From: a bacterium
GTDB taxonomy: Bacteria > Sysuimicrobiota > Sysuimicrobiia > Sysuimicrobiales > Segetimicrobiaceae
Direction of reading: 5' to 3'
DNA length: 37,495 nt
Assembly: GCA_035703895.1 (NCBI GenBank)
Contig: DASSXJ010000152.1
Coordinates: 1-37,495, forward strand
The translations under genes were made by a program, and so were the position numbers. Below are positions 7,028 through 23,427 of this stretch, one piece after another. Each line of letters starts with the position of its first letter. Within the stretch, counting starts at the first letter, position 1. The notes beneath the pieces were generated by a model. The model was not told the origin of the DNA, made no database searches, and worked only from the letters and a program-made list of their open reading frames with translations.

Positions 7028-8608
7028 TCATTTCAGTTGCTGCCAGGACAGGATCGAGAGGCCTGTTCCAAAGACGGAGAGCGCGAGCGGATCAAACCGT
7101 AACACCACGGTCGCGTTCTCGCTCATAAAGCTCGGGTTCGGTGTCCCGCGATTCCCATGATACATCGCCCCGATGTGATCCACAGAAGCCCCGGGGCCAA
7201 TGGCCATGCCGTCCGCCGTGTAAATCAGGCCGTCCACCGTCAGTTCCTGTCGGGGTCCCCCGCACAAGACGAGCCGTCCGGAGCCGTTCACCGCCTGCCC
7301 ATGACAGACGGGGGTCGAACGGGCGGTGGGGACGCTCGTTCCGAAGACCAGGATGCCGGGAGTTTGGCGGCCGACAGCGGTGCTCAGATCGTGTCGGTTC
7401 GTGAGCCGGGCATCCTCAGTCAAGATCACGTCCCCTGCCACGGCCAACGTAACATCCCCCCCACTGCCCCCAAGGTCGAGGTCCTGCACCAACTGCAGCG
7501 TGCCGGTCACATAGATCGTGCCTCGAAGCCGCTCGGCGCTGTGCGTGCCAAGGTAGCCGACGATCTCATAAAATTCGAGCGGTGTATAGATTGAGTTCGT
7601 CCTCTTCGAGAGCCCTGCTGCCCTATTGATCGAAGCGTTGGCGTCGTTTCCGGCCGCACGGCTCACGAACCCGTCCGGGTTGAGCGAGAGGAGCGGGAGC
7701 TCGGCCTTGCGGATCCGCTGCAGGTAGACGTGGGGGAGGCCGCCGGCGCTCCCCGCCGTCCGCTCCACCGTGCTGCGGAGCGTGACCGCGTCCTCGATGT
7801 CGTTCGCGTGATACGGAGCGGTCACACAGGCGTACGATGTTCCACAGGGGTTCGCGCTCTGCCCCAGTTGCGGACGCGCCTTGACGATCTCCCCAAAGAT
7901 CGAGAGCACCCAGGGTGTGGCATCGGCCGCCGGATCCGGATTGTAGTCGGGGCGTTCCGCAAAGCCGAACAACCCGTAGTCCGGGATTCGGCCGGCGTCC
8001 CGCAGGCTCACGATCTCCACTCCCCTCTCGCTTAAGGCGTTGAGGCGGACGTCCGCGTCGGCGAAGCGGATCTCGCTAAAGGATCCCAGGCTCGCACCAT
8101 TCCCGGGAGATCCCACGCCGTAGGGCGCGAGGTAGATGCGCGAGCCGGCCCCACGGAGTTCGACGCGAGAGACTCCAAAGAGCGCGATCGCCTGCGGCGT
8201 TCCCGCGATGGCGCACTCCCGTACCCGCGACGAGATGGCCCGTGCAAGGAGCGGCACTTCGCCGAGGGCCTCGAGCGTCTTGAACCCGGGCCCGCACCCC
8301 GCGGCCGGCCCGGCATCGACCCAGTAGGTGTAGTGTCCCCCGCCATAGGCCGCGGTGACGCCGCGGGCGGGGGTGGTGAAGGTCCGCGGGTCGACGGCAG
8401 CCGCGAGCTCCGCCCGCGCCACTTCGAGGCCGGATTCGGCGAGAAAGTAGCTGCGGGCCACGGCATGCTGGATCGAGGCGTGCAGCATGTCGGTGTTCAT
8501 GAGGCCGATCAGCGCGAAACAGATGGTGGTGATGATCGTGAGTACGGCGAGCACCATGATCAGCGCCAGCCCGCCCTCGCGCGCAGGCACCGTCGAGGAC
8601 GCCCTCAT
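7028..8608 (-). CDS. PilX-like minor pilin / pilus assembly protein
   Basis: This 526-residue protein starts at the ATG that overlaps the preceding PilW-like stop (ATGA). The N-terminus (EGGLALIMVLAVLTIITT, then a helix with FLAESGLEVARAEL) is the PilX N-terminal domain: a prepilin-like Gly followed by a hydrophobic helix and the AE(S/A)GLE motif. The usual +5 Glu of prepilins is absent, as in other PilX-type proteins. The remaining ~450 residues are beta-rich with several Cys, including SANPCGTSYACVT, and a late Gly-rich stretch (LGGSGGDVTLAVAGDVILTE) that reads like repeating beta-strands. It is much longer than proteobacterial PilX, which has about 200 residues, so it may be a tip or adhesive subunit. 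It is the last gene of a sigma-PilV-PilW-PilX group. Confidence 0.8.
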   Translation of the reverse strand: MRASSTVPAREGGLALIMVLAVLTIITTICFALIGLMNTDMLHASIQHAVARSYFLAESGLEVARAELAAAVDPRTFTTPARGVTAAYGGGHYTYWVDAGPAAGCGPGFKTLEALGEVPLLARAISSRVRECAIAGTPQAIALFGVSRVELRGAGSRIYLAPYGVGSPGNGASLGSFSEIRFADADVRLNALSERGVEIVSLRDAGRIPDYGLFGFAERPDYNPDPAADATPWVLSIFGEIVKARPQLGQSANPCGTSYACVTAPYHANDIEDAVTLRSTVERTAGSAGGLPHVYLQRIRKAELPLLSLNPDGFVSRAAGNDANASINRAAGLSKRTNSIYTPLEFYEIVGYLGTHSAERLRGTIYVTGTLQLVQDLDLGGSGGDVTLAVAGDVILTEDARLTNRHDLSTAVGRQTPGILVFGTSVPTARSTPVCHGQAVNGSGRLVLCGGPRQELTVDGLIYTADGMAIGPGASVDHIGAMYHGNRGTPNPSFMSENATVVLRFDPLALSVFGTGLSILSWQQLK

Positions 8609-9225
8609 CGATTCTTTGGCACGAAGACGGTCTGGTTGAAGAAGGTGCGTTGCAGGCCCGTGCGCGACCCGGTCGCGCTCAGCTCCTCGATCGCCATCGC
8701 GATCGCATTGGGCTGGGGGTTCCCCTCCGGCAGCAGCGTGAAGGAGGCCGCCACCACCTGTCGCCCAATGACCGCGTACGGGGCGAGGATCGGGGGCCAC
8801 CGGGTGGCTGGGAAGGCCGTTGCCGGATTGCACCGGGTTCTCAGTTCGTCTGTCGCCGTATCCCTCCAGATGTAGATCGTGGCCTGCCAGTCCGGCGCGC
8901 CGTTGAGGAGGGTGAACGGACCGGAGCAGGCGCTGCGGGCAGTCACGAAACCGATACACCCCTCATACCCACCGGCGCAGCCCGTGTCGGCCGAGTAGAC
9001 GCGGAGCCGGCCGACGCCAAGGGTGGTCTCATGGAGTTGCCGGGCCACCCGGTCGACGGCCAGCCGGGCGTCCTGCTGGGCGGCGAGCCTGCCGTTGATA
9101 TGATGGGAGAGGGCAAAGGCTGGAATGAAGATCTGATAGATGGCCACGATGACGAGCCCGAACAAGACGAGCCCCATGACCACATCCACGATTGCGTATC
9201 CCGCATCCACCCCTCGCGGCCTCAT
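8605..9225 (-). CDS. PilW-like type IV prepilin
   Basis: This 206-residue protein begins at an ATG overlapping the stop of the PilV-like gene. After an 8-residue leader the sequence GYAIVDVVMGLVLFGLVIVA is a class III prepilin signal: Gly at the cleavage site, an aromatic at +1, and a long hydrophobic helix that doubles as the pilus core. The +5 residue is Asp rather than the usual Glu, which may affect N-methylation or subunit docking. The globular part contains Cys pairs likely to form disulfides (DTGCAGGYEGCIGF). Minor pilins of this type prime pilus or pseudopilus assembly in the inner membrane. The fixed order PilV-PilW-PilX and the 4-nt overlaps indicate co-translation. Confidence 0.82.
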   Translation of the reverse strand: MRPRGVDAGYAIVDVVMGLVLFGLVIVAIYQIFIPAFALSHHINGRLAAQQDARLAVDRVARQLHETTLGVGRLRVYSADTGCAGGYEGCIGFVTARSACSGPFTLLNGAPDWQATIYIWRDTATDELRTRCNPATAFPATRWPPILAPYAVIGRQVVAASFTLLPEGNPQPNAIAMAIEELSATGSRTGLQRTFFNQTVFVPKNR

Positions 9226-9686
9226 CGCGACTCCCGGCTCCCGATGCGGGTCTCGAGTGTCCGGCTCTGGGTGACCAACGTTCCGGCGCACCCCGTCCCC
9301 GCAGTTCCCGCCGCGCACGCCGAGCCGTAGGCCACTTGCCAGCTGACAGTGACGGTGAGGTCGAGGAACCCGGGGGTGGACGTGTCGACCCCTGTGTGGA
9401 CCGTGTACGGCCGCCCCTGCCCGGGAGGTACCTGCTCGACTACGATGCGACCGTCCTCGCCGGCGATCGCCGACGGAGGCAGCGAGTGCAGCACCTCCAT
9501 CCGCGCTCGCGCGAGATTCGCGGCGATCGAGGCGCTCTCGGCGGACGCCCCCGAGGACAGGGCCAGGAGGAACAAGCCGCCGAGGCTGAGTACGACGACG
9601 CTGAACAGGGACAGCGCGACGAGGATCTCGATCGTCCCGAACCCACGCGGTGGCAGCATGCTCCGGGCCATCCTGTCGAGCGTCAT
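9222..9686 (-). CDS. PilV-like type IV prepilin
   Basis: The chosen ATG is preceded by GGTGAGGTG and gives 154 residues; an upstream in-frame TTG would add 17 residues with no supporting ribosome site. The prepilin signal is canonical: a basic leader, then RGFGTIEILVALSLFSVVVL with Gly-Phe at the cleavage site and Glu at +5. A Cys-containing C-terminal domain follows (YGSACAAGTAGTGCAGT). It should be cleaved and methylated by a PilD-type peptidase, which is not in this window. The ECF sigma gene ends 77 bp upstream on the same strand and may share its transcript. Confidence 0.85.
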   Translation of the reverse strand: MTLDRMARSMLPPRGFGTIEILVALSLFSVVVLSLGGLFLLALSSGASAESASIAANLARARMEVLHSLPPSAIAGEDGRIVVEQVPPGQGRPYTVHTGVDTSTPGFLDLTVTVSWQVAYGSACAAGTAGTGCAGTLVTQSRTLETRIGSRESR

Positions 9687-9763
9687 TCGCACCTCACCGC
9701 CATCGTCCTCCTCGCGCCGCAAACGATCCGGCGTCAAGCGTCGTGTGGCACCATCCGGATGCG

Positions 9764-11451: not shown

Positions 11452-13032
11452 CTATCGGATGAGTCGGAGCGACACGATCGTCTGAATCACGATCACCGCT
11501 CCAAGCGCTGCCACGGCTGCCGCTGAAAACACCGGAAGCCGCCGCAGCATCGGTCTCACAAGGCGCCGGCCCGGGATCGGCATCCGCGCATCCGAGACGC
11601 TGTCTAAGAGACGAGTCATGAACGACCTGCTGTAGACCATCAGCAGGCCGGCGGCGGTGAGGACCGCGGCCAAGCCGAGGCTGAACATCGAGATCAGCAG
11701 GAGGCCCAGCCCGACCTGTCCCACCGAGATCGCCGCCAGCATCACGACCAGGGCGGAAGGGCAGGGGAGCATGCCGCCTGTGATGCCGATCATGATGAGG
11801 TCGCGCGGCCGAATCGCCTCTCCCGGGTGCGGGTGGTGATGATGTCCATGGCCATGATCGTGATGGGCGTGGTGGTGATCCAGCGCGTGCGCGGCGCGTA
11901 AAGTGCGGAGTCTGCCCCACAGGAGCGAGCCTCCCACCCCCACAAGCATGACGCCCGACAGCACGCTCAGCCATGGAAAGAGTTTCTCCGGGACCACATA
12001 CCGCGATGCTACGAGTGTGCCGAACCCCAGGACAAAGACCCCGGTCGTGTGGGTGAGCGTGACCACGGTTCCAAGGAGCACGGCCTGGCTCGGCGTTCCA
12101 CGCGAGCCGATGAAGTAGGCGGCAAGAATCGCCTTCCCGTGTCCCGGGGTCAAGGCGTGGTAGGCGCCCAGCACGAACGCCCCCAAGATCACGAGGGCGA
12201 GTACCTCAAAGCTGAGAGGGCCCCCAACATGAATCCGCTTGAAGAGCGCCCCGAACGCCGTGCTCTCCGCGACATACCGAGGACCCGGAGTCTGGCCGCC
12301 GGCGTCGGCCACGGTTGCCCCCTCGGCAATCCGGCACCCGGACAGGCGCAGGTTGATCGACGGTTTCGCCTGGAGTGGCCCGGGATGGGCCTGCCGCGGC
12401 GCGGCACCGATCCGGAACCGGGCCACGGTCTCGTCCGGCGGGGACTTGAGGAGGTCAACCGGGTAGGACCGCAGGCGGTTGCTACCGCGGTCGGCCGCGG
12501 GCACGGATGATGACTGCACCAAGGGGCCTGTCACGATAATTTCCTTCCAGCCCACGCGGCTCGGAAAGGTACCGTCTCGATAGGTCAGATCAACCGGCCG
12601 GCTCCCGCTTGGGCCCGAGGTCCCGCTCCCGTCCGCCCACAGCTCTTCCTCGACCCGCAGGATCGGAAGTCCCCCCACGCCCGGCAAGCAGGAGACGGTT
12701 GCCACTTGAAGCCGGAGGGGCACCGGAACCCCGCTGGCGGCAAGGTGCAAGTCGAGCCCCCACTGCGGGAGCCGCGCCGCGAGATGCCGCTCCATCGCAG
12801 TCTCGTCCAGGTGCTCCAGCTCCTGAAAGGTGGGGATCTCCGCCATGTCGAGGATATGGCTGATGTGGATGCCGTCAGGTTGGGCGTCGATGGCGGTGTA
12901 ATGGTTGATGGTGAAGTTGCCGAGTGGATGGGCAGCGGCCGAGAGAGGGCTCAGCACCAACCCCATGATGATCGCGGCGAAGAGCGCGGTTGCGCGTCCG
13001 CGGATGTTCGTCCCGGTGAATGCCGTCCTCAT
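11452..13032 (-). CDS. NicO/RcnA-family nickel-cobalt transporter with large extracytoplasmic N-terminal domain
   Basis: The start was placed at the ATG that begins MRTAFTGTNIRGRATALFA, giving 526 residues with a signal peptide ending SAAAHPLGNFTIN. Residues ~30-290 form an extracytoplasmic domain whose mature end begins with His and continues through NHYTAIDAQPDGIHISHI. The membrane part starts near residue 290. It contains YHALTPGHGKAILAAYFIG (the HX5GHGK motif of NicO proteins), a His-rich cytoplasmic loop (DHHHAHHDHGHGHHHH) and GGMLPCPSALVVML. RcnA-type members export Ni/Co; others import, so direction is uncertain. The extra domain is absent from E. coli RcnA, which is about half this length. 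It heads an operon with the NiCoT permease. Confidence 0.85.
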   Translation of the reverse strand: MRTAFTGTNIRGRATALFAAIIMGLVLSPLSAAAHPLGNFTINHYTAIDAQPDGIHISHILDMAEIPTFQELEHLDETAMERHLAARLPQWGLDLHLAASGVPVPLRLQVATVSCLPGVGGLPILRVEEELWADGSGTSGPSGSRPVDLTYRDGTFPSRVGWKEIIVTGPLVQSSSVPAADRGSNRLRSYPVDLLKSPPDETVARFRIGAAPRQAHPGPLQAKPSINLRLSGCRIAEGATVADAGGQTPGPRYVAESTAFGALFKRIHVGGPLSFEVLALVILGAFVLGAYHALTPGHGKAILAAYFIGSRGTPSQAVLLGTVVTLTHTTGVFVLGFGTLVASRYVVPEKLFPWLSVLSGVMLVGVGGSLLWGRLRTLRAAHALDHHHAHHDHGHGHHHHPHPGEAIRPRDLIMIGITGGMLPCPSALVVMLAAISVGQVGLGLLLISMFSLGLAAVLTAAGLLMVYSRSFMTRLLDSVSDARMPIPGRRLVRPMLRRLPVFSAAAVAALGAVIVIQTIVSLRLIR

Positions 13033-13047
13033 GCTTTCATGTACGTA

Positions 13048-13063
13048 CCGGTTCGGCAACCGG
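13048..13063. promoter_or_regulatory. Inverted repeat just upstream of the NicO gene
   Basis: CCGGTT-CGGC-AACCGG is a perfect 6-bp dyad with a 4-nt centre, 16 bp upstream of the NicO start codon and within the ~110-bp divergent gap shared with the alkyltransferase-like gene. It could be an operator or a small leader hairpin near the ribosome site. No recognisable NiCo or cobalamin riboswitch core is present. Confidence 0.35.
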
Positions 13064-13145
13064 ATTGATGATGTGGCGGGGGGTCGCGGACTACCCACTT
13101 GTAAACCTTCGTCGACGGGAGGCAGAATGGGCTCGTGAAAGATCG

Positions 13146-13484
13146 ATGACCCCTCAACCCCGCGTCGGTCCGCGTACCCCGCCGTCCAGGTTCTTCGCGC
13201 GAGTCTACGCGGTCGTCCGCCGAATTCCTCGCGGCAACGTGACCAGTTACGGGTCGATCGCGCGCGCCCTGGGCGTACCGCAGGGCGCGCGCACGGTCGG
13301 CTGGGCACTCAGGGCATGTCCGGACGATATCCCCTGGCACCGCGTCGTGAATGTGCAGGGCAAGATCAGCTGGAGGCCGACCGGCGGATTCACGCTTCAG
13401 CGCACCCTCCTGCAGCGGGAGGGCGTCCGGTTCAACCGTCAAGGGCGGATCAACCTGGCGAAGTTTGGCTGGAAGGATCTGTGA
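13146..13484 (+). CDS. Alkyltransferase-like (ATL) DNA damage recognition protein
   Basis: This 112-residue protein has the DNA-binding fold of O6-methylguanine-DNA methyltransferases: VYAVVRRIPRGNVTSYGSIA, then the recognition helix with GARTVGWALRACP (Arg49 is the expected base-flipping arginine finger). At the active site PCHRV reads PWHRV, with Trp64 in place of the alkyl-accepting Cys, which is the defining feature of ATL proteins. ATLs bind O6-alkylguanine without repairing it and hand the lesion to nucleotide excision repair. The length matches single-domain ATLs. It is divergent from the nickel operon and followed 96 bp later by the sensor kinase. Only a weak GAAAG precedes the ATG. 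Confidence 0.93.
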   Translation: MTPQPRVGPRTPPSRFFARVYAVVRRIPRGNVTSYGSIARALGVPQGARTVGWALRACPDDIPWHRVVNVQGKISWRPTGGFTLQRTLLQREGVRFNRQGRINLAKFGWKDL

Positions 13485-13580: not shown

Positions 13581-16463
13581 ATGCGGCTTACCACGCTGCA
13601 GTGGGCAGTGGGCATGTTTTCCGCCCTGTTGGGGGCGATGATGCTCATTGTCCCGCACCGGTTCGAGGCCGCGACCTACGCGGTGCTCCAACCGCATCTG
13701 CTGTGGTGGGGGGTGGCGTTCCTGCTGGCAGGGGCCGGCGTATTGGCTGCGGCGTTGATTCCTCTGAGGTGGCTGCTGCTCTTCACCCACCTCGCCGCCG
13801 GGATGGTGCTGGTCGTCCTCGCGACCGGCTTTGCCTCTCAGGATGCGTGGCCTAGAGCGATAAACTTCCTGGTCCTGGGACTGGGCGCCGCGCTTGTTCC
13901 GTTCGTCTCTCGCCGGGGTAAGATCGAGACGAGCGAGTCCGGCTGCGATCTCCTGGCGCTGTTGGTGGGGCTGGGGGCCGCCGCCACCGGGCTGATCATC
14001 ATCGCGTTTCCCGGTCAGCTCGGGGGGCAGTTCTACGATCTGATCCGGGCACATCTGCCGCTATACGGCGTGCTGTTTATGGTCACCGGGCTTGCGCTCG
14101 CCGCGGCCCAGCTCCGCCCCGCCTCGTCTCCCATTATCAGATGGGCCTTGTACCTGGCCGCGGGCTCCACGCTGCTCGCGTTCGCGGGGAATACCGCCGT
14201 GGTCGTCGGGGACTGGACCGGCACTGCGTATTTCGGCGGGTTCGGCGCCCTCGTGGCGATGACCCCCTGGTTGGACCCGGTGCTCGGACACATCGATTCG
14301 TCATCGCTCCGAATCCGGCTGGCGCTGGCCCTGATCGTCGCCGTGGCGGCTCCGCTGATCGCCGCGGTCACCATCGTGACGGACCGGGCCGAGCTGTCCG
14401 CGACCAGCCAGGCCCTAACACTCCAAGAGACGATCGCGAATACGCTTGCCGATGACATTTCGCGCTACCTGTCGTTCCACCGGGCCGCCGCCGCCGGGTT
14501 GGCCAAGGCGATCAATTTGGTCCAGATGACCCCTCCTCAACAAGAGGCGCTGCTACGGACCCTCGGCGAGGAGTACCCGGATGTCTTTACGTTTGCGACC
14601 TACGACGATCGAGGGCACCCGCTGGCCCGCGGCGACTCGTTTCCGCGGGAGTCCATTGGGGGATCCCCGGTGTTCGAGCAGTCCCTTCGAAGCAACGCCG
14701 AGTCGCTGGCCTACCATGTGTCGCCGCTCAGCCACCGCCTGCTCTTCGAGTTCGGAGCGCCGCTCCGCCGGCCCGGCAACTCCTGGGCCGGGTTGCTCGT
14801 GGTGTCGGTCGAGTCCGCCCGTGTCGCCTCAACGATCGAACGAATCGGTGCCGAGACCAAAGGCCTGGCCTATGTGGTCAACAACCAGGGCCGTCTCCTC
14901 GTGCATCGGGATGCCGCTCTCAACGGATCCTTCCTTGACGTCTCGGATTTGCCCCCGGTCGCCAACCTGCTCGTGGGGCGCAGCGCCGACGGCGTGCTGA
15001 GGTACGAGAACAAGAATGGCTGGCAACTGGCCGGGTTCGCGCGCGTGGCGGGGACCGCACTGGGCGTCGTCGTAGAGCGTCCGCTCGCGGTCGCCGTCGC
15101 CGGCGCGCACACCGGCCGGGAGATCGCGTTTACGATTCTGCTCTTGATGGTGGGCGGGGCGGCGGTCGGGGGGATCCTCGCGGCGGGCGCCCTGGCGCGG
15201 CCGCTCGAGGCGCTGGCGCGTGAGGCGAGACGGCTCGGCGAGGATGACGCCACGGTGGCCCTGCCCGAGAGCAGTATTGCAGAGGTGAAGGACTTGGCGC
15301 GCACGTTCGGCGAGATGAGCGGCCGTCTGTCCGCGCGGACGCAGGAGCGCGAGCGCGCCTATGGGGCCCTACGCGAGCGCGAAGCCCGGATCCGTTCGAT
15401 CATGGATTCCACGTCCGACGGGTTCATCTTCGTCGGCCGGGACGGCCGGGTCAAGTCCATGAACCAGCGGGCCATCGAGTTGCTTCCCACCGGAGCCGCG
15501 TGGGCCGGCGGCGCGGACTTTGCGCGCGCGGTGGCAGAGATCGACGCGCGTCCGCCGGAGCGCGAAGCGCTGGCCGCAACACTCCGATTGCTCCTCGAGG
15601 ACCGCGACCCGGCGGGGAAGGGAGATCTCGAGGTCCGGGGAAGCGGGCGCGTGCTTCACTGGGATGCCCAGCCCGGCAAGGATGAATCGGGAGCCACGGT
15701 CGGCCTCACCATTACGCTCCACGATGTGACCGAGGAGCGCGAGGTCAGCCGCATGAAGTCCGACTTCGTCTCCTTCGTCACGCACCAGCTGCGGACGCCG
15801 CTGGCGGGGATCAAGTGGCTGCTCGAGCTGGCCGCCGAGACCCAAGACACCGGGGAGCTCCAAGCCTACATCCAAGACGCCCGGGAGGCCAACGAGCGGT
15901 TGGTGAACCTGGTCAATGACCTCTTGGACATCTCCCGGCTCGAGAGCGGGCGGTTGGCCGTGTCGCTCCAGGAGCTCAATTTGGGCACGATGACGGAGAG
16001 TGTGCTCGAGGAGCTGGGCCCGCTCATCAAAGAGAAGGGGCATCGATTGTCGGTGAGCGGGGTGGAGAGGGTCCCACCGATCGTGGCCGACCCGCAGCTG
16101 CTCCGCCAGGTGGTCATCAACCTCGTCTCCAACGCGATCAAGTACACCCCCCCGCCGGGAGAGATCGCACTCCAGATGCGCCCGGAGAACGGCTCGGTGC
16201 AGTGGGCAATTCAGGATAACGGCATCGGGGTGCCCAAGGACGCCCAGCCCCGCCTGTTTGAGAAGTTCTATCGGGCGGACAACGTGCACAAAATCGAAAC
16301 CGAGGGGACGGGATTGGGCCTCTACCTCGTCCGGCTGATCGTCGAGCGGTTCGGCGGCCGGATCTGGTGCGAGTCTGAGGAGGGCAAGGGCTCGACCTTC
16401 CTCTTTACCGTTCCCCTCCCTGGAGGGAAGGACACGTGGACGCATCCCGCAAGCGGGTCTTGA
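13581..16463 (+). CDS. Hybrid-topology sensor histidine kinase with membrane and Cache-like input domains
   Basis: The ATG at 13581 follows GGGAG and gives 960 residues; a GTG at 13506 would add 25. Residues ~1-240 contain about eight hydrophobic helices, an integral-membrane module. A further helix near residues 250-270 leads into an extracytoplasmic sensor of Cache type (residues ~280-500) that includes GLAYVVNNQGRLLVHRD. Next come a closing transmembrane helix (~515-540), HAMP, and a PAS domain (IRSIMDSTSDGFIFVGRDG). The kinase core has the H-box FVTHQLRTPLAGIKW with His735, the N-box near Asn851, DNGIGVPKD and GTGLGLYLV. No receiver domain is attached. Its 3' end overlaps the first stand-alone receiver by 28 nt, so it very probably phosphorylates one or both receivers that follow. 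The ligand is unknown. Confidence 0.93.
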   Translation: MRLTTLQWAVGMFSALLGAMMLIVPHRFEAATYAVLQPHLLWWGVAFLLAGAGVLAAALIPLRWLLLFTHLAAGMVLVVLATGFASQDAWPRAINFLVLGLGAALVPFVSRRGKIETSESGCDLLALLVGLGAAATGLIIIAFPGQLGGQFYDLIRAHLPLYGVLFMVTGLALAAAQLRPASSPIIRWALYLAAGSTLLAFAGNTAVVVGDWTGTAYFGGFGALVAMTPWLDPVLGHIDSSSLRIRLALALIVAVAAPLIAAVTIVTDRAELSATSQALTLQETIANTLADDISRYLSFHRAAAAGLAKAINLVQMTPPQQEALLRTLGEEYPDVFTFATYDDRGHPLARGDSFPRESIGGSPVFEQSLRSNAESLAYHVSPLSHRLLFEFGAPLRRPGNSWAGLLVVSVESARVASTIERIGAETKGLAYVVNNQGRLLVHRDAALNGSFLDVSDLPPVANLLVGRSADGVLRYENKNGWQLAGFARVAGTALGVVVERPLAVAVAGAHTGREIAFTILLLMVGGAAVGGILAAGALARPLEALAREARRLGEDDATVALPESSIAEVKDLARTFGEMSGRLSARTQERERAYGALREREARIRSIMDSTSDGFIFVGRDGRVKSMNQRAIELLPTGAAWAGGADFARAVAEIDARPPEREALAATLRLLLEDRDPAGKGDLEVRGSGRVLHWDAQPGKDESGATVGLTITLHDVTEEREVSRMKSDFVSFVTHQLRTPLAGIKWLLELAAETQDTGELQAYIQDAREANERLVNLVNDLLDISRLESGRLAVSLQELNLGTMTESVLEELGPLIKEKGHRLSVSGVERVPPIVADPQLLRQVVINLVSNAIKYTPPPGEIALQMRPENGSVQWAIQDNGIGVPKDAQPRLFEKFYRADNVHKIETEGTGLGLYLVRLIVERFGGRIWCESEEGKGSTFLFTVPLPGGKDTWTHPASGS

Positions 16464-16858
16464 TCGTCGAAGACGACCGCTTTCTCCGGAGGGCCTGTCA
16501 GGCGCGCCTGGAGCAGCAGGGCTACACCATCCTCACGGCCCAGGACGGCGAGGAGGCCGTCCGGGTCGCCAGGACGGAGATCCCCGATCTGATCCTGCTC
16601 GATCTCTTAATGCCGAAGCTGCACGGCCTCGAGGTGCTGCGTATCCTGAGGGCGGAGGAAGGGACCCGAGCCATCCCGGTCCTGGTCCTCTCCAACTCGT
16701 CCCGCCAGGGGGACATGGACGACATCCAAAGGCTCGGAATCTCCGGGTACTTCGTGAAGGCGAATCTCTCGCTCCAAGATCTCAGCCATCAAGTCAAGCT
16801 GGTGCTCGAGTCTTCCGCGCCGGCAGGGGGAACGGATGCAGCGCATCCTGGTCGTTGA
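16436..16858 (+). CDS. Single-domain response regulator (CheY-like) 1
   Basis: This 140-residue receiver has no output domain. Phosphorylation-site residues are all visible: acidic pair Asp13/Asp14 (IVEDDRF), phospho-acceptor Asp56 (ILLDLLMP), Ser86 (VLSNSS) and Lys108 (FVKANLS). The start is a GTG inside the kinase gene (28-nt overlap), and the stop lies inside the next receiver gene, so translation is coupled. It should take phosphate from the upstream kinase and act by protein contact. PilB, two genes downstream, is the obvious candidate target by position, but nothing in the sequence shows the contact. Confidence 0.93.
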   Translation: MDASRKRVLIVEDDRFLRRACQARLEQQGYTILTAQDGEEAVRVARTEIPDLILLDLLMPKLHGLEVLRILRAEEGTRAIPVLVLSNSSRQGDMDDIQRLGISGYFVKANLSLQDLSHQVKLVLESSAPAGGTDAAHPGR

Positions 16859-17213
16859 GGACGACCGGTTCCTGCGAAAGGCGGCCGAAGCCGCGCTCCG
16901 ACGCCAGGGGTTTACCGTGCTTGTGGCCGCGGACGGGGAGGAGGGACTGCGGGTGGCCCGGTCCGAGCTTCCCGATCTCGTGCTCCTGGATCTGATCATG
17001 CCCGGGCTGCAGGGCTTCGAAGTGCTGAAGCTGCTCAAGGCGGAAGCCGCCACCTCGGCGATCCCGGTGATCATCCTCAGCAACCTCGGTCAGGATTCCG
17101 ACGTGAAGGCGGCGATGGACGCGGGGGCCGTCGATTACCTGGTCAAGGCCAACCTGGCGTTGGACACGCTCGTGGCGCGGGTGAAAACGCTGTTCGAGGC
17201 GCGGACGCCGTGA
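16836..17213 (+). CDS. Single-domain response regulator (CheY-like) 2
   Basis: This 125-residue receiver begins at an ATG 23 nt before the end of receiver 1, with GGCAGGGGGAACGG just upstream. Its active-site residues are Asp9/Asp10, Asp52 (VLLDLIMP), Ser82 (ILSNLG) and Lys104 (LVKANLA). It resembles receiver 1 closely, including the LSN and VKAN segments, which points to duplication within the operon. The alpha4-beta5-alpha5 face differs between the two (QGDMDDIQRLGISGYF against DSDVKAAMDAGAVDYL), so they may contact different partners. Its stop overlaps the GTG start of pilB (GTGA). Confidence 0.93.
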   Translation: MQRILVVEDDRFLRKAAEAALRRQGFTVLVAADGEEGLRVARSELPDLVLLDLIMPGLQGFEVLKLLKAEAATSAIPVIILSNLGQDSDVKAAMDAGAVDYLVKANLALDTLVARVKTLFEARTP

Positions 17214-18946
17214 CGTCGGGGCTGCGGGTCAGCGATGCCGAACTCAAGACCCTCCTCGTGACCCAACTGGAGGTCATGGACGAGTCCGAGTTCGAGCGGG
17301 TGCGGGCGCTCGCCGCTCGGTTCAAGATCCCCTTTGAGCAGGCGGTCGTCGAGCGAGGCGGGATCCCCCTGCGGTTCCTCTTGGAGCAGCTCGGCAAGCT
17401 CTGGGGCGTCGAATTCACCGAGCTGCGCGCCGCCAACGTCAGTCCCGAAGCGATCCGGTCGGTGCCCGAGGAGTACGCCCGGGCGCATCTCCTGATCCCC
17501 TTCGATCGCCGGGATGGGTCCCTGCACGTGGCCATGTGGGATCCACGGGACCAGGCGGCGATCGAGGAGATCCAACGGATGGCGTGGATGAAGGTCGTCC
17601 CGTATCTCGCGACCGACACCGCGATCCATCGCGCCCTCCTCCAATACAAGGGCGACCTGCGCGCCATCCTCGAGCGCGTGGCGGAACAGCAACAACCCGG
17701 GACCGCGGAGCCGGATGATGAGGGGAAGTCGGCGATCGAACTGCTCGACAGCATCCTCGAGTACGCGGCGGTGTCCGAGGCGTCCGACATCCACATCGAG
17801 CCGTTCGAACTCGAGGGCGTGGTTCGGTTCCGCGTCGACGGCGCGCTCCAGGACGTCCTCAGCCTCCCCACCAGCCGGCTGCCGTCGCTGGTCGCGCGCG
17901 TCAAAATCCAGAGCGAGATGCGGATCGATGAAAAACGGGCGCCGCAGGACGGACGGTTCGACGCGGCGTACGGCGGGTTGAAGCTGGACCTACGCGTCTC
18001 TTCCATGCCGACCCACTGGGGGGAGAAGATCGTCATCCGGGTGCTCAGCAAGGAGCGGTCGCTGCTCGATCTGGAGGATCTTGGGCTCTCCCCCGCCGAC
18101 CGCGAGATCATCGTGCGAAACATCCAGCGTCCCTTCGGGATGATCCTGATCACGGGCCCGACCGGCTCGGGCAAGACGACGACGCTCTACGCCACCATCA
18201 ATCGCCTGCACGTCGAGCGGCACAACGTCGTGAACATCTCCACGGTTGAGGATCCGGTCGAATACACGATTCCACGGGTGAACCAGGTCTCGATCAACCC
18301 GGTGGCCGGCCTCAACTTCGCCACCGGCCTTCGCGCGCTGTTGCGACAGGACCCCGACATCATCATGGTAGGGGAGATCCGGGACCATGAGACCGTCGAG
18401 ATGGCCGTCCGGGCCGCGCTCGTCGGGCGGCTGCTCCTGTCCACGCTCCATACGAACGAGGCCACGGTGGTGGTGCCGCGCCTCCTGGATATGGGGGTCG
18501 AGCCGTTCCTGATCAACTCCACCCTGATTCTCGTGATTGCCCAGCGGCTCGTCCGGAAGATCTGCGTGCACTGCCGTCAGAGTGTCCCGCTCGACCGGAC
18601 GTTCCTCGAGCGCCTGCGCGCCCGGTCCGACTACGAGGAGACGATCCACGTGCTCCAGACTCAAGGGGTCCTCGGGAAAGCCGCCGATCCGTTGGTCGGG
18701 ATCCACACGTTCAAAGGTCGCGGCTGTTCGCAGTGCCTCAACACCGGCTATCGTGGTCGCATGGGGGTGTTCGAACTGCTCGAGATCACCGATCCCATCC
18801 GGACGTTGATCCTGGAGCGGGGCGACGCGGGCATGATCCGGAGGGCGGCCATCGCCGGAGGGATGCGGACGATGTTCTGGGACGGCCTCGCGAAGGCATT
18901 CATGGGCGAGACCACGATCGAAGAGATCTTTCGCGTGGCCCTGTAA
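17210..18946 (+). CDS. pilB: Type IV pilus / type II secretion assembly ATPase (PilB/GspE)
   Basis: This 578-residue AAA+-like secretion ATPase has an N-terminal MshEN/GspE-N domain (residues ~30-150; RFLLEQLGKLWGVEF and AHLLIPFDRRDGSLHVAMWD). The catalytic domain carries Walker A GPTGSGKTTTLYA (Gly316, Lys322), the Asp box, Walker B DIIMVGEIRDHETVEMA and the His box LLSTLHTNEA. A four-Cys zinc site follows (Cys452/455 and Cys506/509, CVHC and CSQC), typical of extension ATPases and absent from PilT. It powers pilin polymerisation at the inner membrane. PilC, PilD, PilQ and PilT are not in the window. The GTG start overlaps receiver 2, which places the motor in one operon with its probable signalling system. 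The pilin genes at 7028-9686 may encode its cargo. Confidence 0.95.
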   Translation: MTSGLRVSDAELKTLLVTQLEVMDESEFERVRALAARFKIPFEQAVVERGGIPLRFLLEQLGKLWGVEFTELRAANVSPEAIRSVPEEYARAHLLIPFDRRDGSLHVAMWDPRDQAAIEEIQRMAWMKVVPYLATDTAIHRALLQYKGDLRAILERVAEQQQPGTAEPDDEGKSAIELLDSILEYAAVSEASDIHIEPFELEGVVRFRVDGALQDVLSLPTSRLPSLVARVKIQSEMRIDEKRAPQDGRFDAAYGGLKLDLRVSSMPTHWGEKIVIRVLSKERSLLDLEDLGLSPADREIIVRNIQRPFGMILITGPTGSGKTTTLYATINRLHVERHNVVNISTVEDPVEYTIPRVNQVSINPVAGLNFATGLRALLRQDPDIIMVGEIRDHETVEMAVRAALVGRLLLSTLHTNEATVVVPRLLDMGVEPFLINSTLILVIAQRLVRKICVHCRQSVPLDRTFLERLRARSDYEETIHVLQTQGVLGKAADPLVGIHTFKGRGCSQCLNTGYRGRMGVFELLEITDPIRTLILERGDAGMIRRAAIAGGMRTMFWDGLAKAFMGETTIEEIFRVAL

Positions 18947-18964: not shown

Positions 18965-19738
18965 CTACGGCTTCGCCGCCCGTAGAAGCGCCAGGTATTC
19001 TTCGACCGTGTCCGCCCCGGTGATGGCGCGGAGGACGACCTCGTCGACCGCGCCCTGCCATTTCTCAACCGCCGGCGGGATGGCGTCCGGACGCTCGGCC
19101 GCGATGGCCGTGTCCATCGGCGTGACCCTCATGCGCGCAAAGTGGGCCCCGTACGCCGGGATCGCTGCGTACCGGTTCCCCTCCAGCGCCAGTTTGTCGC
19201 AGGCCGCCGGCCCGAGGGCCACGCGGACATACGCGAAGCGCTGGGGCGGTTCGCGACCCGCTGCGGCTGCGCCGTCACGCACCCACGCGGTGGATCGACG
19301 CGCGTGTTCGGGAGTCAGCCAATTGAACAGCACGGCGTCGGCGACCTCTCCGGCCAAGCGGCACATCTGCGGACCGAGCGCGGCCACGACGAGGCGGACA
19401 GGGAGGTGGGCCCGCAGAGTGGCGACCCCTTCGCGGACACGCGCAAGGGCCCCCGGGTTCGCACTTCCGACGCCCAGGAGGAGACGGGGGAGGGGAAGGT
19501 CGTTGGCCCGCACGCCCTGGTCGATGCTGTCTGGTCCGCGCGTGTACAGGGGAATCACCCCGACCCCGAGCTCGACGTGCCGTGTCTCGCGCGCCGCCGG
19601 CGCAAGCGCGACCAGCCCATCGATCGCGCCGGGATAGTTGACCCAGAAGGAACTATACCCGAGCGCCTCGGCCTCCCTCGCCGACGCGCCGACGATCTCG
19701 GGCGCGGTGCCCGCGAACAGTGCAAAGCCTCGTCTCAT
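18965..19738 (-). CDS. LLM-class (luciferase-like) flavin/F420-dependent oxidoreductase
   Basis: This 257-residue protein starts at an ATG preceded by GAGAGGAGAGAG, a strong Shine-Dalgarno on the minus strand. The sequence fits the luciferase-like monooxygenase fold: REAEALGYSSFWVNY near the start, then VELGVGVIPLYTRGP, LLLGVGSANPGALARVREGV and LVVAALGPQMCRLAGEVADAVLFNW. The last segments match the LLM barrel strands that line the flavin or F420 pocket. At 257 residues it is shorter than most members (300-350), mainly in the insertion regions. The substrate cannot be predicted. It is convergent with pilB (18-bp gap) and divergent from the quinone oxidoreductase-like gene, with which it shares a ~226-bp promoter region. 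Confidence 0.85.
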   Translation of the reverse strand: MRRGFALFAGTAPEIVGASAREAEALGYSSFWVNYPGAIDGLVALAPAARETRHVELGVGVIPLYTRGPDSIDQGVRANDLPLPRLLLGVGSANPGALARVREGVATLRAHLPVRLVVAALGPQMCRLAGEVADAVLFNWLTPEHARRSTAWVRDGAAAAGREPPQRFAYVRVALGPAACDKLALEGNRYAAIPAYGAHFARMRVTPMDTAIAAERPDAIPPAVEKWQGAVDEVVLRAITGADTVEEYLALLRAAKP

Positions 19739-19964: not shown

Positions 19965-20933
19965 GTGAACGCGATCCGTGTGCATGCCGTTGGGGGACCT
20001 GAAGTGTTGTGTCTCGAGGAGCTGCCGACACCCACGCCGGGACGTGGGGAGGCGCTCGTGAAGATCGAGGCCGCCGGGGTGAATTATACCGATATCTATT
20101 ATCGGATGGGCTGGACGAAAGCCGCAGTCCCCTTCACCGTGGGCGTGGAAGGGGCGGGGACCGTGGAGGCGCTCGGGCCAGAGGTCGGCGGGCTCAAGCA
20201 GGGCGACCGGGTTGCGTACACCGGGTCGCTTGGCGCCTACGCGGATTACGCGTCCGTACCGGTGTGGCGGCTGGTCCGGCTTCCCGGCGGTACGGATGCG
20301 CGCACCGCCGCGGCCGCGATGCTGCAGGGGATGACCGCGCACTACCTCTGTCACAGCACGTACCCGCTCAAGTCCGGCCAGACCGCCCTCGTCCATGCCG
20401 CGGCCGGAGGGGTCGGGCTCCTCCTGGTGCAGATGATAAAGATGCTGGGCGCCCGGGTGATCGGCACCGTGTCGACAGAGGAGAAGGTCAGGCTCGCGCG
20501 GGAGGCCGGGGCCGATGAGGTGATCATGTATACGAAGGCGGACTTCGAGGCGGAGACGAAGCGGCTCACGGACGGCCGCGGGGTCGACGTCGTCTACGAT
20601 TCTGTCGGGAAGACCACGTTCGACAAAAGCCTCAATTGTCTCGTCCCGCGAGGGTACCTCGTGCTCTTCGGCCAGTCGAGCGGGCCCGCGCCGCCGCTCG
20701 ATCCGCAGGTCCTCATCAAGGGATCGTTGTTCCTCACCCGCCCCACCCTCGGAAACTATACGGCCACGTCCGAGGAGATCAATGAACGGGCCGGAGACGT
20801 GCTGGGGTGGGTCGCGTCGAACCGGCTGCGCGTGCGGATCGAGGCCACGCTTCCCCTGGCGGAGGCCGCGGAAGCCCACAAGCGGCTCGCCGGGAGAGGG
20901 ACCTCGGGGAAGCTCCTGTTGATTCCGCGATGA
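19965..20933 (+). CDS. Quinone oxidoreductase-like medium-chain dehydrogenase/reductase
   Basis: This 322-residue protein starts at a GTG preceded by GGAGG (19955-19959). It belongs to the zinc-independent quinone oxidoreductase (Qor) group of the MDR superfamily. The GroES-like N-terminal domain includes AGVNYTDIYYRMG and VGVEGAGTVEALGPEV. The Rossmann NADPH-binding motif is HAAAGGVGLLLVQMIKMLGA, preceded by MLQGMTAHYLC, the family's conserved helix. The Cys and His ligands of the catalytic zinc site are absent, as expected for Qor. Predicted activity is NADPH-dependent one- or two-electron reduction of quinones or enals in the cytoplasm. It stands alone: leuS starts 55 bp downstream, but the functions are unrelated. 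Confidence 0.9.
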   Translation: MNAIRVHAVGGPEVLCLEELPTPTPGRGEALVKIEAAGVNYTDIYYRMGWTKAAVPFTVGVEGAGTVEALGPEVGGLKQGDRVAYTGSLGAYADYASVPVWRLVRLPGGTDARTAAAAMLQGMTAHYLCHSTYPLKSGQTALVHAAAGGVGLLLVQMIKMLGARVIGTVSTEEKVRLAREAGADEVIMYTKADFEAETKRLTDGRGVDVVYDSVGKTTFDKSLNCLVPRGYLVLFGQSSGPAPPLDPQVLIKGSLFLTRPTLGNYTATSEEINERAGDVLGWVASNRLRVRIEATLPLAEAAEAHKRLAGRGTSGKLLLIPR

Positions 20934-20988: not shown

Positions 20989-23427
20989 ATGGGCGACACC
21001 TACGATCCCAAGCACATCGAGGCGAAGTGGCAGGCCCGCTGGGACGCGGACGGGCTGTACCGCACCCGCGACGACCCGAGCCGGCCCAAGTTCTATTTCC
21101 TGACGATGTACCCGTATCCCAGCGGGGACCTGCACCTGGGTCACTGGTACCCGATGACGCCGTCGGACACCAAGGCCCGCTACCTCCGGATGCGGGGTTA
21201 CAACGTGCTCTTTCCCATCGGGTTCGACGCCTTTGGGCTGCCGGCGGAGAACGCGGCGATCCAGCACGGCATCCATCCATACAAGTGGACGATTGCCAAC
21301 ATCGAGCGCATGCGTGGACAACTGCGCTCGATGGGCGCGATGTTCGACTGGTCTCGGGAGATCGTCACCTGTCAACCCGAGTACTACACCTGGAACCAGT
21401 GGTTTTTCCTGAAGTTCTACGAGGCGGGGCTGGCGTACCGTGCCTTCGCGGCGGTCGATTGGTGTCCCAACGACAACACGACGCTCGCCCGCGAGCAGGT
21501 CATCGGGCCCGATCGCGTCTGCGAACGCTGCGGGACGCCGGTCATCAAGAAAGACCTCGAGCAGTGGTTCTTCCGGATCACCCGGTACGCGGACGAGTTG
21601 CTCGACTTCAGCAAGATGGACTGGCCGGAGCGGGTGCAGACGCTCCAGCGCAACTGGATCGGCCGGAGCGACGGCGCGGAGATTGTCTACACGAGTGAGC
21701 GGGGCGACCCGATCACGGTGTTCACGACGCGCCCCGACACGCTGTACGGCGCCACGTTCCTCGTGCTGGCACCCGAGCATCCCTTGGTGGAGAAGCTCAC
21801 GACGCCCGAGCACCGGGCCGAGGTTGCCGCCTACGTCCATCGTGCCCGGCGCCAGTCGGAGATCGAGCGGCTGGCCGAGGATCGCGAGAAGACCGGCGTC
21901 TTCATCGGGGCGTTCGCGCGCCATCCGCTGACCAACGCCCGAATCCCCATCTACATCGGAGATTACGTCCTCTTGACGTATGGCACCGGGGCCATTCACG
22001 CGGTGCCGGCGCACGATACTCGCGACTTCGCGTTCGCCCGCAAGTACCGGCTGCCGATCCCGGTGGTGATCGCCCCCCCCGACTGGGACGGCAAACCCCT
22101 CCCCGAGGCGTATGTCGGTGAGGGCGTGATGGTCAACTCGGGCCCGTTCGACGGGACGCCGAGCGACGAGGGGCGCGCGCGTGTGACCGAGGCGCTCGAG
22201 CGAGCCGGCCGCGGCAAGGCCGCCGTGACGTACCGGCTGCGAGACTGGTTGATCAGCCGGCAACGATATTGGGGGACCCCGATTCCCATCATCTATTGTC
22301 CGGGGTGCGGCCCGGTTCCGGTTCCGTACTCAGATCTGCCCGTAGTGCTCCCGGAGGACTCGCAGTTCCTCCCCACAGGCGAATCGCCGCTCAAGCTCGA
22401 CGAACGGTTTCGGCGCACGCGCTGCCCGCGGTGCGGGGGCGCGGCCGAGCGCGAGACCGACACGATGGACACCTTCGTCGATTCGTCCTGGTACCAGTAC
22501 CGATATCTGAGCCCCCACGACGGCGACCGCCCGTTTGACCCTGCCGAGGCCCGAATCTGGGTTCCGGTCGATCAATACACCGGCGGCATTGAGCATGCGG
22601 TGCTGCACCTGATGTACACCCGGTTCTTTACGAAGGCCATGCGCGACATGGGGTTGCTGTCGTTCGATGAGCCGATGCTCCGGCTGTTCAACCAAGGACA
22701 CATCCTCGGGGCCGACGGCAACAAGATGAGCAAGTCACGCGGGAACGTGGCCAATCCGGACGACTATGTCGGCACCATGGGTGCCGATACGGTCCGGACC
22801 TATCTCATGTTCATTGGACCGTGGGACGGCGGAGGCCCGTGGAACCCCCAGGGCATCGAGGGATTGCACCGGTTCCTCCATCGGGTCTGGCATTTAGTGG
22901 TCGACGCGGCGCCGCCCGGCCCGGGCGGCGCCGACGGCGCGGCGACCGTGCGCCGGGTCACCCACCAGACGGTCAAGCGGGTCACCGACGACCTCGAGGC
23001 GTTCCGGTTCAATACGGCGCTCGCGGCGCTGATGGAGTGTACCAATGCGCTCTACCGGGCCCGTGAGCAGGGCGCGGCGGGGACAGAGGAATGGTCGCCC
23101 GCGCTGCGGACCATGGTGCTCATGCTGGCCCCGTTCGCGCCGCACCTCGCCGAAGAGCTCTGGGCACAGCTGGGAGAGTCGTACAGCGTGCACCAGCAGG
23201 CCTGGCCCGCGTGGGATCCGGAGGCGGTGCGGGAGGACACGGTCACGCTCGTGCTGCAGGTGAACGGCCGGGTCCGGGATCGGGTCCAGGTGCCGGCCGG
23301 CCTGGACGAGGCGCATCTGCGGGAGACCGCCCTCGCGAGCGAAAAGGTGCGAAAGTTCATCGACGGGATGCAGGTTCAGGACGTGATCGTGGTCCGCGGG
23401 AAACTTGTGAACGTCGTGGTGCGCTGA
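20989..23427 (+). CDS. leuS: Leucyl-tRNA synthetase
   Basis: This 812-residue class I synthetase is of normal bacterial length. The HIGH motif is HLGH (His49-His52), preceded by MYPYPSGDLHLGHWYPM, which is characteristic of LeuRS. KMSKS is at residues 579-583 (GADGNKMSKSRGN). The CP1 editing domain (~residues 220-390) contains FTTRPDTLYGATF and HDTRDFAFARKY, the Thr-rich loop and Asp needed to hydrolyse mischarged tRNA. Paired CxxC zinc sites are seen (CERC; CPGC and CPRC). The C-terminal tRNA-binding domain ends VRGKLVNVVVR. The 55-bp leader is too short for a T-box, and no clear Shine-Dalgarno precedes the ATG. Confidence 0.98.
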   Translation: MGDTYDPKHIEAKWQARWDADGLYRTRDDPSRPKFYFLTMYPYPSGDLHLGHWYPMTPSDTKARYLRMRGYNVLFPIGFDAFGLPAENAAIQHGIHPYKWTIANIERMRGQLRSMGAMFDWSREIVTCQPEYYTWNQWFFLKFYEAGLAYRAFAAVDWCPNDNTTLAREQVIGPDRVCERCGTPVIKKDLEQWFFRITRYADELLDFSKMDWPERVQTLQRNWIGRSDGAEIVYTSERGDPITVFTTRPDTLYGATFLVLAPEHPLVEKLTTPEHRAEVAAYVHRARRQSEIERLAEDREKTGVFIGAFARHPLTNARIPIYIGDYVLLTYGTGAIHAVPAHDTRDFAFARKYRLPIPVVIAPPDWDGKPLPEAYVGEGVMVNSGPFDGTPSDEGRARVTEALERAGRGKAAVTYRLRDWLISRQRYWGTPIPIIYCPGCGPVPVPYSDLPVVLPEDSQFLPTGESPLKLDERFRRTRCPRCGGAAERETDTMDTFVDSSWYQYRYLSPHDGDRPFDPAEARIWVPVDQYTGGIEHAVLHLMYTRFFTKAMRDMGLLSFDEPMLRLFNQGHILGADGNKMSKSRGNVANPDDYVGTMGADTVRTYLMFIGPWDGGGPWNPQGIEGLHRFLHRVWHLVVDAAPPGPGGADGAATVRRVTHQTVKRVTDDLEAFRFNTALAALMECTNALYRAREQGAAGTEEWSPALRTMVLMLAPFAPHLAEELWAQLGESYSVHQQAWPAWDPEAVREDTVTLVLQVNGRVRDRVQVPAGLDEAHLRETALASEKVRKFIDGMQVQDVIVVRGKLVNVVVR

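Follow-up and report, generated by a model that had tools for sequence, protein, structure and literature searches.

How environmental signals are passed on to the pilus extension motor is in large part unsettled. In one of the closest described cases, the single-domain regulator EmvR of Xanthomonas oryzae pv. oryzicola binds PilB and acts as a non-competitive inhibitor of its ATPase activity, an effect lost in the variants D15A, D59A and T87A, with the histidine kinase ColS upstream and no need of a transcription output (PMC11973254). A CheY-like regulator is paired with a pilus motor ATPase also in Synechocystis: an interaction with PilB1 is reported for PixE, a PATAN-domain protein that a blue-light receptor releases (PMC7690835, its reference 61, Jakob et al. 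2019). In the Pil-Chp system of Pseudomonas aeruginosa one CheA-type kinase, ChpA, works with a receptor, adaptation proteins and the two lone receivers PilG and PilH, which are antagonistic on pilus extension (PMC10519157) and on PilB localisation (PMC10519157, PMC12632253); no contact of PilG or PilH with PilB had been reported as of a 2024 review (PMC11656802). The N-terminal domain of an assembly ATPase can itself be the regulatory input, as in MshE/PilB proteins with MshEN, the domain through which MshE binds c-di-GMP (PMC5013675). No kinase-REC-REC-PilB operon appeared in the titles and parts of abstracts of the open-access literature searched.

Such an operon is present in the window, by which is meant the whole analysed stretch of 37,495 nucleotides. 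The features referred to below are the following, with the evidence for each in brackets.

7028..9722, minus strand: three prepilin-like genes, PilX/GspK-like, PilW-like (signal only) and PilV/GspI-like (NCBIfam)
13020..13484, plus strand: MGMT-like (ATL) gene that bounds the cassette on the left (Pfam, synteny)
13581..16463, plus strand: sensor histidine kinase, 960 aa (Pfam, hydropathy, internal repeat, orthologue L040:5080-8733)
16436..16858, plus strand: REC1, receiver-only response regulator (Pfam, alignment, tree)
16836..17213, plus strand: REC2, receiver-only response regulator (Pfam, alignment, tree)
17210..18946, plus strand: divergent PilB/GspE-type assembly ATPase, 578 aa (Pfam, NCBIfam, tree)
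18155..18178, plus strand: Walker A of the ATPase, GPTGSGKT (motif location)
18422..18430, plus strand: HIS-box variant VGR of the ATPase, residues 405-407 (alignment; relatives have TGH)
19965..20933, plus strand: quinone-oxidoreductase-like gene that bounds the cassette on the right, with leuS next at 20989 (synteny)

The genes for the kinase, REC1, REC2 and the ATPase form one unit on the plus strand with intact reading frames and stop-to-start overlaps; REC1 has a GTG start and overlaps the kinase gene by 28 bp, REC2 overlaps REC1 by 23 bp and the ATPase gene, also with a GTG start, overlaps REC2 by 4 bp. The ATG of the kinase at 13581 is supported by nucleotide and protein similarity to the orthologue in a congener (genome G033), which starts there. 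A scan of the operon region gave no promoter-like site, and no terminator-like site above chance. Reading frame coordinates and domain calls thereby bear out the four overlapping genes described in the initial annotation, and its statement that no other pil gene is present is right within the limits of the operon; elsewhere in the window, 3.9 kb upstream of the kinase, there are the prepilin-like genes.

When compared with the described systems, the locus resembles EmvR-PilB with ColS in that a histidine kinase stands upstream of single-domain regulators which, by analogy, may act on PilB directly and without a transcription output. EmvR is however an orphan and single regulator (PMC11973254), while in the window two receivers share one overlapping operon with a kinase and with an additional, divergent PilB. 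The likeness to PixE and PilB1 lies in the combination of a CheY-like regulator and a pilus motor ATPase (PMC7690835), but the receivers of the window are bare REC proteins beside their own kinase. One kinase and two lone receivers are shared with Pil-Chp, to which the operon does not belong: the kinase is a membrane kinase of the HisKA type with HAMP and PAS, and no Che genes were recognised among the neighbours scanned. The unusual part is an operon dedicated to kinase, REC, REC and motor, in which the motor is a modified spare one.

The kinase consists of an N-terminal membrane domain, a Cache-like periplasmic part, a TM helix, HAMP, PAS, HisKA with the box HQLRTPL and HATPase_c, and searches against Pfam returned dCache (1.2e-5, under the Pfam cut-off), HAMP, PAS_4, HisKA (4e-17) and HATPase_c (1e-31). 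Since HisKA with its phospho-His and HATPase_c are both present it is a HisKA-type sensor histidine kinase, and the sequence THQLRTPL is found in the kinases of all four cassettes described here. The N-terminal membrane domain (13581-14405) gave no match in Pfam; it resembles a duplicated four-helix unit with a further TM helix (internal repeat, E 2e-5) and is possibly an undescribed sensor module. The single-sequence AlphaFold model of the membrane part is of low confidence (mean pLDDT 55.9).

Both receivers have a REC domain alone and retain the acidic pair, the phospho-Asp (D56 in REC1, D52 in REC2) and the Lys, with Ser as the Thr/Ser switch residue, which makes them single-domain response regulators, and both are under purifying selection. 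They had been described from the outset as receiver-only proteins with intact phosphorylation sites that differ on the output face; the alignment of REC1 and REC2 agrees with this on each point and adds that the kinase-facing side differs too. REC1 has K after MP and SNSSR after beta4, REC2 has G and SNLGQ at these places. The differences fall in alpha1 (17-18), in the beta3-alpha3 loop (57) and at 84, 86, 95-96 and 113-114 (REC2 numbering, to which 5 is added for CheY numbering), and five positions, 17, 26, 57, 84 and 86, are fixed and different between the paralogues. From CheY-type receivers, positions 17-18 and 57 are presumed to face the kinase or the active site and positions 84, 86, 95-96 and 113-114 are taken to lie on the output side. 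A first REC tree with distant outgroups gave no resolution of REC1 and REC2, while a reduced sequence set resolved REC1, placing REC1 of all four cassette genomes in one clade (support 97/99.9). REC2 was not recovered as a clade, nor was a REC2 clade rejected (p 0.175), and a separate REC1/REC2 duplication within the window's genus was rejected (AU p 0.004). As judged from the reduced set, the duplication is older than the genus split and the receivers are old paralogues.

In the ATPase the domains T2SSE (1e-120) and MshEN (9e-20) were identified with Pfam. Full-length alignment to solved PilB and PilF located Walker A, the atypical Walker B with the catalytic Glu, the ASP-box Glu, the arginine fingers and the tetracysteine zinc site characteristic of the T2SSE superfamily. 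Its best NCBIfam scores are under the equivalog cut-offs both for PilB (TIGR02538, 489 vs 676 bits) and for GspE (TIGR02533, 495 vs 630), and in the tree the protein lies outside both main PilB groups of the phylum, joined to its orthologue on a stem of 1.66 changes per site; because of these scores and this long orphan branch it is here called PilB-like. Further ATPases of PilB/GspE size and PilT-type genes are found elsewhere in the same genome. A single-sequence AlphaFold model of the PilB-like ATPase had a low mean pLDDT (35.5).

The motor is altered in the HIS-box, which reads VGR in the window and in the G033 orthologue but TGH in all other distinct ATPases of the phylum where the motif was read (41/41). 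By counting back from the second HIS-box histidine, which is retained at residue 414 (H420-equivalent), VGR was matched to T411 and H413 of Geobacter PilB, residues that sit at an inter-subunit contact (PMC5424180). The assignment to the superfamily stands despite the substituted histidine, since the same study calls one HIS-box histidine highly conserved but omits it from the list of fully conserved residues (PMC5424180). The c-di-GMP motif of MshEN (two 24-residue RLG...Q sequences) was not matched even in relaxed form in either orthologue, which distinguishes them from MshE. A lineage-specific loss of the c-di-GMP input, as a swap, was considered as well but is weak, since the relaxed motif, present in at least one copy in 25 of 43 other ATPase rows, is absent in 18 of these 43 too.

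To follow the distribution of the cassette, all 43 available genomes of the phylum were searched with PilB, REC2 and the kinase core, and the full kinase-REC1-REC2-PilB order was found in two of them, the window's genome and G033. In G033 the cassette lies between an MGMT-like gene and an oxidoreductase-leuS pair, as in the window, and the proteins share about 76% (PilB), 74% (REC2), 69% (REC1) and 63% (kinase core) identity with those of the window. Between the two genomes dS of the cassette genes is 0.82-1.13, with 0.96 for the neighbouring leuS, and dN/dS is 0.18-0.29, the PilB-like ATPase having 0.18. The identical order and chromosomal place, together with the low dN/dS, show that the arrangement is not due to chance; with dS near that of leuS they indicate that the common ancestor of the two congeners probably already had the four-gene unit, which was inherited vertically and maintained by purifying selection. 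Among the 43 genomes the PilB-like orthologue was found only in the two with the cassette at this site and is always adjacent, overlapping or abutting. A third congener, G030, has an empty site, where the MGMT-like gene (L102:7590-7905) has the oxidoreductase as its immediate neighbour at a distance of 18 bp (L102 7886-7905), which shows that the cassette is either there as a whole or missing as a whole; in G031 and G032 the contigs are too short or incomplete at the cassette site to be informative. Conservation of the order in relatives, proposed at the start as a check, is therefore seen in a congener but is not wide, and with two genomes carrying it the full order could be a local arrangement. 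A contig scan outside the phylum returned solely one Myxococcota PilB (39% identity), and a scan of viral sequences gave no match.

In a sister genus (genomes G023 and G025) a kinase followed by the REC1 and REC2 orthologues was found without PilB, the kinases being 54-55% identical to that of the window over the PAS-HisKA-HATPase core. The G023 kinase (L071 6138-8060) contains three PAS domains and lacks a membrane sensor, the G025 kinase is 77% identical to it over the full length, and the G033 kinase (L040 5080-8733) has a membrane sensor together with an extra PAS-like region, a combination which shows that the sensor part was shuffled. On the common kinase core the sensors are thus membrane-Cache-HAMP only, triple PAS only, or both. 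Judged from the sequences compared, the kinase-REC1-REC2 core is older than its link to PilB. In G023 the core is located 7.4 kb from a full Tad locus with Flp-type pilins, CpaB-, TadZ/CpaE-, CpaF- and TadBC-type genes and a secretin (CpaC-type), and this secretin gene recurs at the corresponding position in G025, which gives a second link of the cassette to pilus machinery. The region between the G023 core and the Tad locus (L071 8805-15427) contains two LuxR-type response regulators, an AAA ATPase and a GAF-GGDEF protein.

The reading preferred here, with slightly better than even confidence, is a two-component cassette devoted to the control of an accessory pilus-assembly ATPase, which at least one receiver would bind. 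The membrane kinase would sense an envelope or periplasmic signal and would phosphorylate both receivers, of which at least one would bind the co-encoded PilB-like ATPase and set how active it is or how it is recruited to the host's main type IV pilus platform, which is encoded elsewhere with its own pilB, pilT and pilC, so that control would run through protein contact rather than transcription. Direct control of PilB by a receiver is plausible and not new in kind, given EmvR and PixE and, less directly, PilG and PilH, and the proposal of the initial annotation that the phosphorylated receivers act on PilB directly is partly supported. The last pair also offers an analogy by which the receivers may be opposing signals, one an activator and the other an inhibitor or phosphate sink. 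A sub-case, compatible with control of the ATPase by the cassette and held tentatively as a real possibility, makes one receiver the PilB effector and the other, which would never touch PilB, only a phosphate sink or a brake on its partner; it agrees with the differences at 17-18 and 57 as well as on the output face, and with PilH being reported to act on PilG, while the full active sites and the purifying selection in both receivers speak against it. Operon membership can however serve co-expression alone, and since the core of the sister genus has no PilB next to it, PilB need not be its sole target, or a target at all. The main rival, considered rather unlikely, takes kinase-REC1-REC2 as a general signalling core whose receivers have their targets elsewhere (a different motor, exopolysaccharide export or further enzymes), with PilB simply co-transcribed in the window's genus. 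It fits the greater age of the core and its PilB-free form, followed by LuxR-type regulators and a GGDEF protein before the Tad genes, and a single-domain response regulator is reported to activate a phosphoglycosyl transferase (PMC12802240); it sits less well with the sole PilB of the clade always adjoining the cassette, with the absence of the entire block at the G030 site and with the sister-genus cassette likewise being near pilus genes.

A point against the preferred reading is that a motor with such a changed HIS-box may be a weak one. Carried further, the PilB-like protein would be a degenerate or signalling ATPase in which inter-subunit coupling is broken and which modulates the main PilB hexamers of the host, an improbable explanation for which the VGR of both orthologues at the contact of T411 and H413 (PMC5424180), the orphan branch and the report of PilB as a signalling protein in Myxococcus (PMC5544727) can be cited, but which is at odds with its dN/dS and with the presence of Walker A, Walker B with the catalytic Glu, ASP-box, arginine fingers, second HIS-box His and zinc cysteines. 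Under dedicated control of the accessory ATPase the same substitution admits a bolder version, to which little probability is given: a self-contained pilus throttle of kinase, two antagonistic receivers and a spare motor with its inter-subunit coupling site remodelled from T/H to V/R, in which cooperativity would depend on receiver binding instead of c-di-GMP. More generally the operon hints at a self-contained system in which a signal is sensed and pilus assembly set directly, and suggests that control of PilB by lone receivers may exist beyond the organisms where it was found. With kinase, both receivers and presumed motor target in one operon it is a small purifiable system for phosphotransfer, binding and ATPase tests.

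Regarding the surroundings, the PilX/GspK-like family numbers five copies in the window's genome, of which one is next to another PilB (contig C164), and gave no match in G033 or in the other genera of the same bacterial family; the prepilin-like genes were dropped as part of the operon unit since G033 has the operon without them. Only in the window genome are the PilB-like gene and the oxidoreductase separated by a luciferase-like monooxygenase gene (18965-19738, minus strand), and in G033 a RidA-like gene (by sequence) is found instead, on the other side of the cassette.
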